Shown here: positions 38,017 through 59,295 of the stretch, in pieces | Layout of the letters: each line of letters begins with the position of its first letter | Position numbering within the stretch: the first letter of the stretch is position 1 | NCBI GenBank assembly: GCA_009904015.1 | Contig: WYEQ01000012.1 | Coordinates: 1-64,000 of the forward strand | Source of the DNA: Desulfurococcales archaeon | GTDB lineage: Archaea; Thermoproteota; Thermoprotei_A; Sulfolobales; Fervidicoccaceae | Length of the DNA stretch: 64,000 nucleotides | Reading direction: 5' to 3' | The notes under the pieces: generated by a model | What the model was told of the DNA's origin: nothing | Database searches by the model: none | Seen by the model: only the letters and a program-made list of their open reading frames with translations | Made by a program: the position numbers and the translations under genes

Positions 38017-38025
38017 CTTTATAAA
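38017..38025 (+). promoter_or_regulatory. TATA box of the tRNA-Lys 3' half transcript
   Basis: CTTTATAAA at 38017-38025 lies about 27 bp before GTGGAGGCACCGG (from 38048), where the GC-rich leader of the tRNA 3' half begins. The spacing fits a dedicated start of transcription just ahead of the leader. Confidence 0.6.
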
Positions 38026-38078
38026 CTTTCTAGCGCGAACCAATTAAGTGGAGGCACCGGAGCGCCTAGACCGCCGAG

Positions 38079-38124
38079 GCTCTTAACCCGTAGGTCCCGG
38101 GTTCAAATCCCGGCGGGCCCGCCA
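38079..38124 (+). tRNA. 3' half of a split tRNA-Lys(CUU)
   Basis: From 38080 the sequence gives the anticodon loop CTCTTAA (anticodon CTT), anticodon-stem strand CCCGT, a variable region AGGTC, T stem-loop CCGGG TTCAAAT CCCGG, acceptor strand CGGGCCC, G73 and encoded CCA (38122-38124). The expected 5' acceptor GGGCCCG and the D arm are absent within 300 bp on either side. Instead, 38048-38078 is a GC-rich leader; its CCGCCG could pair with the end of a typical Lys 5' exon (CGGCGG), as in bulge-helix-bulge precursors. Split tRNA-Lys(CUU) genes are known in Staphylothermus. The alternative is an attachment-site remnant left by an integrated element. The exact junction (near positions 29-31 of the tRNA) is uncertain by one or two bases. 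Confidence 0.75.
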
Positions 38125-58719: not shown

Positions 58720-59295
58720 TTATGGCTTGTACCATTCCAGAAACGCGTATTTTACGTTATCTCCTAGATGAACAGCTATAATAAACTTTTTTCTAACACT
58801 ATGGCTAAGTCTTCCAGCTCTGATTAGCTCCACTGGGTCAATCTCGCTGTCTTTTTTGAAAACGCCTACTAGGTAAGGCGCATGCTCTATTCCAGGAGCG
58901 GTCTTGTAAAGGCTGAAGTCGCTTCCAAACTTCATTCCACTCCTAACTATGAACCCCTTCTTTCTAAAATCCCTGTAAACATCGTATAGCTCCTGAAAAT
59001 CCGGTATTCTCTCTAAGCTTATCTTTCTTAGCTCCTCGACACTCAGTTTCTTGCCATCAGCGTTCTCAATTGTAATGGAATCGTTCTCGAGCAAGTAAAG
59101 CGCCTCGAATAGGGATAACTCTAGTACATCGTTGTATTTCTGTAAGCCAGGCTTCTTAATTCCGAAGGGCTTTCCGTAAACTCCCTTTATATAAAGCTCA
59201 CTCGCTTCATCAGGGTTCGGAACTATTACCCTTATGCCTATTAGTACTCCGCGAGGCTTCTCATTTCCTGTAGAAGACGATGTACTTGAGGTCAT
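58720..59295 (-). CDS. endA: tRNA splicing endonuclease, catalytic subunit
   Basis: Cuts bulge-helix-bulge motifs in precursor tRNAs and rRNAs. The 191-aa protein has the C-terminal catalytic domain: VYRDFRKKGFIVRSGMKFG, catalytic Tyr in DFSLYKTAPG, His in GIEHAPYLVGVF and Lys in LSHSVRKKFIIAV, ending in FLEWYKP. The N-terminal ~100 residues match the family's regulatory domain. Crenarchaeal EndA normally pairs with a structural subunit in an alpha2beta2 enzyme with relaxed substrate range, which is what split tRNAs need. It overlaps the start-side end of the DUF47 gene by 35 bp. Confidence 0.93.
   Translation of the reverse strand: MTSSTSSSTGNEKPRGVLIGIRVIVPNPDEASELYIKGVYGKPFGIKKPGLQKYNDVLELSLFEALYLLENDSITIENADGKKLSVEELRKISLERIPDFQELYDVYRDFRKKGFIVRSGMKFGSDFSLYKTAPGIEHAPYLVGVFKKDSEIDPVELIRAGRLSHSVRKKFIIAVHLGDNVKYAFLEWYKP

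Follow-up and report, generated by a model that had tools for sequence, protein, structure and literature searches.

Split genes for tRNA-Lys(CUU), interrupted at position 30/31, have been described in Staphylothermus marinus and S. hellenicus (Chan, Cozen and Lowe 2011, PMC3218864), and the same tRNA is split at the same position in Nanoarchaeum equitans, as one of six split tRNAs (PMC3218864 Table 1). Here we report that a hot-spring archaeon of the Fervidicoccaceae almost certainly carries such a gene, encoded at two separate loci whose products would be spliced in trans. One of the halves lies in a 64,000-nucleotide stretch of contig WYEQ01000012.1 (assembly GCA_009904015.1; hereafter the window), and the other on a different contig of the same genome (G000; 1.33 Mb in 37 contigs, 92% complete), where genome-wide look-ups were made as pattern and family searches. 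What can be read from the DNA is both halves, complementary tails, a cloverleaf upon joining, no intact gene in the assembly and compensatory evolution in relatives. Split tRNA-Lys(CUU) thereby extends beyond Staphylothermus, and standard tRNA annotation of such genomes would call a gene in two pieces missing.

Two halves and the tRNA they would form

The 3' half, with its upstream signals, occupies 38017-38124 of the window on the forward strand. A TATA box (CTTTATAAA, 38017..38025) stands about 24 nt upstream of a GC-rich leader of about 29 nt (38050..38078) that ends in CCGCCGAG. It is followed by the 43-nt 3' exon of tRNA-Lys(CUU), from G31 to G73 (GCTCTTAACCCGTAGGTCCCGGGTTCAAATCCCGGCGGGCCCG, 38079..38121), with the anticodon CTT at 38082-38084, and by a genome-encoded CCA end that is read directly at 38122..38124. 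An initial annotation, made from the letters of the window alone, had described a lone tRNA-Lys 3' half with no 5' half nearby and with a TATA box ahead of a GC-rich leader, and our analysis bears this out: ARAGORN calls no tRNA here, neither in the window nor in an isolated 250-nt stretch, and the tRNA covariance model reaches 20 bits at 38053-38121, under its cut-off of 29. The score of the box is exceeded by a single one of the 35 tRNA upstream regions of the genome and matched by 0.6% of random 75-mers. A further copy of the 3' half was looked for in the G000 assembly and not found.

Searching for the expected 5' end yielded a lone 5' half of 31 nt at G000:C20:166686-166716 (GGGCCCGTGGCTCAGCCTGGTAGAGCGGCGG), followed by the trailer AGGCCTGGGGCTCACGGTGCCTCC and then by TTTTTT. 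With its 24-nt trailer, complementary to the leader, it spans G000:C20:166686-166740, immediately ahead of the T6 run. The existence of a 5' half with a trailer of this kind had been predicted; its start, GGGCCCGTGGCTCAGCC, proved to be one base off the guess. When the exons are joined at 30/31, ARAGORN accepts a tRNA-Lys(ctt) with a complete cloverleaf, while it refuses each half alone. Every stem of the joined tRNA is paired, the anticodon stem including one G-U, and the CCA is present. The other lysine tRNA, tRNA-Lys(TTT), is intact in G000 (C11:71426-71499), and no intact tRNA-Lys(CTT) gene was found in this 92% complete assembly. Each half has its own predicted promoter, the 3'-half box being the stronger: as a sequence signal, the TATA box of the 5' half is exceeded by eight of the 35 tRNA regions and equalled by 5% of random stretches.

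Other candidates for the 5' half were rejected. The GGGCCCGTAGCTCAGCC start at C1:319-335 belongs to a tRNA-Trp(CCA) with an intron of about 104 nt, the one at C8:4899-4915 to a similar long-intron gene that ARAGORN calls Arg(cct), and a match at C20:43932 has no tRNA-like sequence after it. The two long-intron genes (G000:C1:155-335 and G000:C8:4712-4915, with introns of about 104 and 129 nt) are similar to each other, and their introns belong to a type that houses a C/D-box small RNA; contig C8 measures 5.9 kb and may stem from strain variation or contamination. A further split tRNA was considered at C20:156119-156188, where a 3' piece resembling that of Arg(TCT), with repeated GCCGG, is present, and the GGGTCCG match at C11:187117 that could have been its partner runs into non-tRNA sequence. 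Because it has no 5' partner and an intact Arg(TCT) exists at C33:72569, we take this piece to be probably a fragment.

Pairing in trans and predicted processing

The first ten bases of the leader (GGAGGCACCG, 38050-38059) are exactly complementary to the last ten of the 5'-half trailer (G000:C20:166731-166740), giving a perfect 10-bp run. The whole trailer-leader duplex is predicted at -40.7 kcal/mol, a value reached by none of 5000 dinucleotide shuffles (mean -22.7, s.d. 4.0), and 38050 is the top site for the trailer in a scan of the window in 3-nt steps on both strands. The self-fold of the leader (AGGC/GCCT) to which the initial annotation drew attention is real but weak, its -6.1 kcal/mol being far from the pairing with the trailer. 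Among eight split Lys genes, the own leader is the best partner for each trailer, in rows as in columns, and the total for own pairs is reached by one of 40,320 permutations, which is the observed one, bearing in mind that some of these genomes are related and hence do not represent eight independent events.

The leader had also been proposed to pair with the end of a Lys 5' exon, and GCCG at 38073-38076 can indeed pair with C25-C28. This helix, together with the bulges GG|A and AG|G, can form a canonical bulge-helix-bulge with cuts at 30/31; its 3' side covers 38073..38079, with the bulge at 38077-38079 and the predicted cut at 38078/38079. The junction ...CGAG|G (or CGAA|G) is also present in relatives. 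We propose that two short RNAs would be made from two promoters, one comprising the 5' half and its 24-nt trailer, the other the 3' half and its leader of about 29 nt, and that trailer and leader would base-pair in trans. This would bring nucleotides 22-28 of the 5' exon opposite the leader and the beginning of the 3' exon to form the bulge-helix-bulge, a two-subunit EndA would cut one bulge at G30|A and the other at G|G31, and RtcB would join G30 to G31. RtcB is the archaeal tRNA ligase, and the ligation step is assumed here from general knowledge.

Candidate genes for the splicing endonuclease are at hand. The window itself holds endA, as noted at the outset (58720..59295, reverse strand; PF01974, 102 bits), with a motif ...GSDFSLYKTAPGIEHAPYLV...SVRKKF that we take to be of the catalytic type, and a putative second subunit is encoded at G000:C37:82644 on the forward strand (PF01974, 52 bits). 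As predicted from their domains, these two genes would give an endonuclease of two subunits, the pattern that goes with split tRNAs.

Forms of the gene in relatives and rival explanations

The family of the window counts 8 genomes in 5 genera (g1-g5), two of which, G003 and G004, are 99% complete, and its tRNA-Lys(CUU) gene comes in graded forms. It is uninterrupted in G007 (g5); in G005 (g4) a 26-nt intron with the end GCCGAG|G sits exactly at 30/31; the split form is present in G000 (g1), G002 and G003 (g2) and G004 (g3); in G001 (79% complete) we found the 5' half only, and in G006 (61% complete) neither half. In G003 the halves share a strand and are separated by 156 nt, and in G004, which is a single contig, they are on opposite strands at a distance of 88 kb; neither genome has an intact Lys(CUU) copy. 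In G000 both halves are far inside large contigs, with 38 kb and 33 kb to the closest contig ends and complete genes on either side, and because of these distances they must be at least about 70 kb apart, if the assembly is right. The tails differ between the split genomes of the family yet stay complementary: in the 11-bp trans helix, G003 and G004 differ by four double compensatory changes and zero breaks. The 3'-half promoter of G003 is AAATTATATAAT, which is unrecognised by a TATA matrix trained on G000.

Gene neighbourhoods suggest which of the halves has moved. In G007, tbp is followed after 112 nt by the start of the uninterrupted gene, and in g2 and g3 after about 50-420 nt by the 5' half; the intron-containing gene of G005 adjoins tbp in convergent orientation, 227 nt distant, and the 5' half of G000 is 4.6 kb from it. 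Because 5' halves and uninterrupted gene lie near tbp, the older site would be that of the 5' half, and it is the 3' half that would have moved; in G000 the latter has the cell-division genes cdvA-cdvC upstream and a carbamate kinase gene downstream. Also, genes adjoining the G004 3' half are related to genes next to the G002 5' half and in the vicinity of the uninterrupted G007 gene, which fits a rearrangement breaking the locus at the tRNA. Most likely, a cis intron at 30/31 gave rise to the split, and the 3' half was later relocated. In a tree of concatenated CdvA, CdvB, CdvC, TBP and CTP synthase, G000 groups with g4 and g5 (83/89) and not with g2 and g3, which suggests two splits within the family; a single clade of all split members is neither supported nor rejected (approximately unbiased test, p-AU 0.233).

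The initial annotation had read the locus as a split, trans-spliced gene, a reading that the 5' half, its complementary trailer, the T6 run and the relatives now support as far as sequence goes. It had also named what would speak for a different origin, namely an intact tRNA-Lys(CTT) gene elsewhere together with integrase genes or a second attachment copy near the locus. Indeed, tRNA genes are often integration sites and the genome has at least one other tRNA fragment (C20:156119), so that the 3' half could be what an integration event left at an attachment site, with the functional tRNA-Lys(CUU) encoded elsewhere. Yet neither an intact copy nor a second attachment copy was found in the G000 assembly, the flanking genes scanned (cdvABC, carbamate kinase, a beta-propeller protein, translin, S-adenosylhomocysteine (SAH) hydrolase and the like) include no integrase, and a leader at promoter spacing that matches the trailer of a lone 5' half, with compensatory changes in relatives, is unexpected for a remnant. 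This origin, already contradicted by the matching 5' half, is in our view very improbable. Hardly any credit at all is due to the idea that the halves are one gene with a very long intron, as the 156 nt between the G003 halves could be read, or an intact locus broken by the assembly of a draft in 37 contigs: the G000 halves are well inside their contigs and flanked by complete genes, those of the single-contig G004 are on opposite strands, a T6 run closes the 5' half and a separate TATA box precedes the 3' half. What does weigh against a trans-spliced gene is that we infer the transcription, cleavage and ligation of the halves from sequence, that plain cofolding places a competing fold 5-7 kcal/mol below the canonical bulge-helix-bulge (as it also does for the Staphylothermus genes), and that an intact copy may sit in a gap of G000, although none is present in G003 or G004, both of them 99% complete.

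It has long been disputed whether split tRNA genes go back to early life as relics or result from the recent breakage of genes with introns. A single small family with uninterrupted, intron-containing, adjacent-split and dispersed-split forms, disrupted at the same nucleotide and with the same junction, favours late breakage. If, instead, a single ancient split ancestor had been common to Staphylothermus and the split members of this family, the other forms having arisen by fusion, one would understand why both lineages have the 30/31 position and a similar junction, and a clade of the split family members is tolerated by the data (p-AU 0.233). However, uninterrupted and intron-containing forms are found inside the family and in most other families of the order, the trailers and leaders of G000, of g2/g3 and of Staphylothermus have no evident homology, and the tree puts G000 with the genera that have the intron and the uninterrupted gene (83/89). 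We consider such an early split unlikely and prefer late breakage, the split in G000 being probably of separate origin from that in Staphylothermus.

The order-wide pattern and the closest known systems

We extended the comparison to 214 genomes of the order. Split tRNA-Lys(CUU) genes are numerous in the Staphylothermus family (f4: G066-G071, G073, G077, G080, G082, G083, G099), where they span several genera besides Staphylothermus, with trans helices very different in sequence; in G083 and G082 the coordinates match the published ones of S. marinus and S. hellenicus. Lys(CUU) has a short cis intron at 30/31 in 29 genomes of family f7 and in one each of f4 (G072) and f11 (G212), and most other Lys(CUU) genes among the matches listed are uninterrupted at this position.

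The initiator tRNA-Met(CAU) is split at 30/31 as well, with both halves found, in nine genomes of families f1, f3, f4, f7 and f11 (loci L213 in G043, L214 in G056, L215 in G126, L216 in G140, L217 in G003, L219 in G142, L220 in G211, L221 in G145 and L222 in G067), so that G003 has two split tRNAs. Depending on the genome, the halves are adjacent, kilobases apart or on opposite strands. Cognate trailers and leaders pair at a mean of -38.8 kcal/mol versus -25.3 for non-cognate ones, and six of 362,880 permutations are as good. We found no description of this split in the literature searched; in N. equitans the initiator tRNA-Met is split at 37/38 (PMC3218864). In G000 the initiator gene (C37:5200-5600) is contiguous, with a long intron at 30/31 and apparently two further insertions, one following the anticodon and one in the T loop. 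It is likely that a cis intron at 30/31 is a recurrent precursor of split tRNA genes in the order, tRNA-Lys(CUU) having split separately in the family of the window (perhaps twice) and in that of Staphylothermus, with intermediates still alive, and the initiator tRNA-Met at this same position in at least five families.

Among known systems, the Staphylothermus genes are the closest: they share with the G000 gene the identity of the tRNA, the 30/31 junction, exons of 31 + 43 nt, separate promoters and a bulge-helix-bulge plus a GC-rich trans helix. They differ in that their halves are 4.5 kb apart, in contrast to at least about 70 kb in G000, in that the tails have no evident homology, and in belonging to a different family of the order; also, in G000 the 5' half is near tbp and the 3' half behind cdvC. 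The likeness to N. equitans, drawn from the published table, extends to the tRNA and its 30/31 junction; that distant host has six split tRNAs, whereas one was found in G000. Another split tRNA of the same publication (PMC3218864) has an arrangement like that of G003, with a different tRNA and a split at 37/38. The noncanonical intron at 30/31 of tRNA-Lys(CUU) occupies the same site, and the one in G005 shares the GCCGAG|G 3' junction, but it belongs to a single transcript, measures roughly 10-26 nt and comes without separate promoters. A published split tRNA for Fervidicoccaceae was not found in the literature searched, whose coverage stopped short of subscription papers and tRNA-prediction databases. 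Split tRNA-Lys(CUU) at 30/31 is already published for Staphylothermus and N. equitans; what the Fervidicoccaceae add is a graded series within one small family, in which the steps of tRNA gene splitting become testable.
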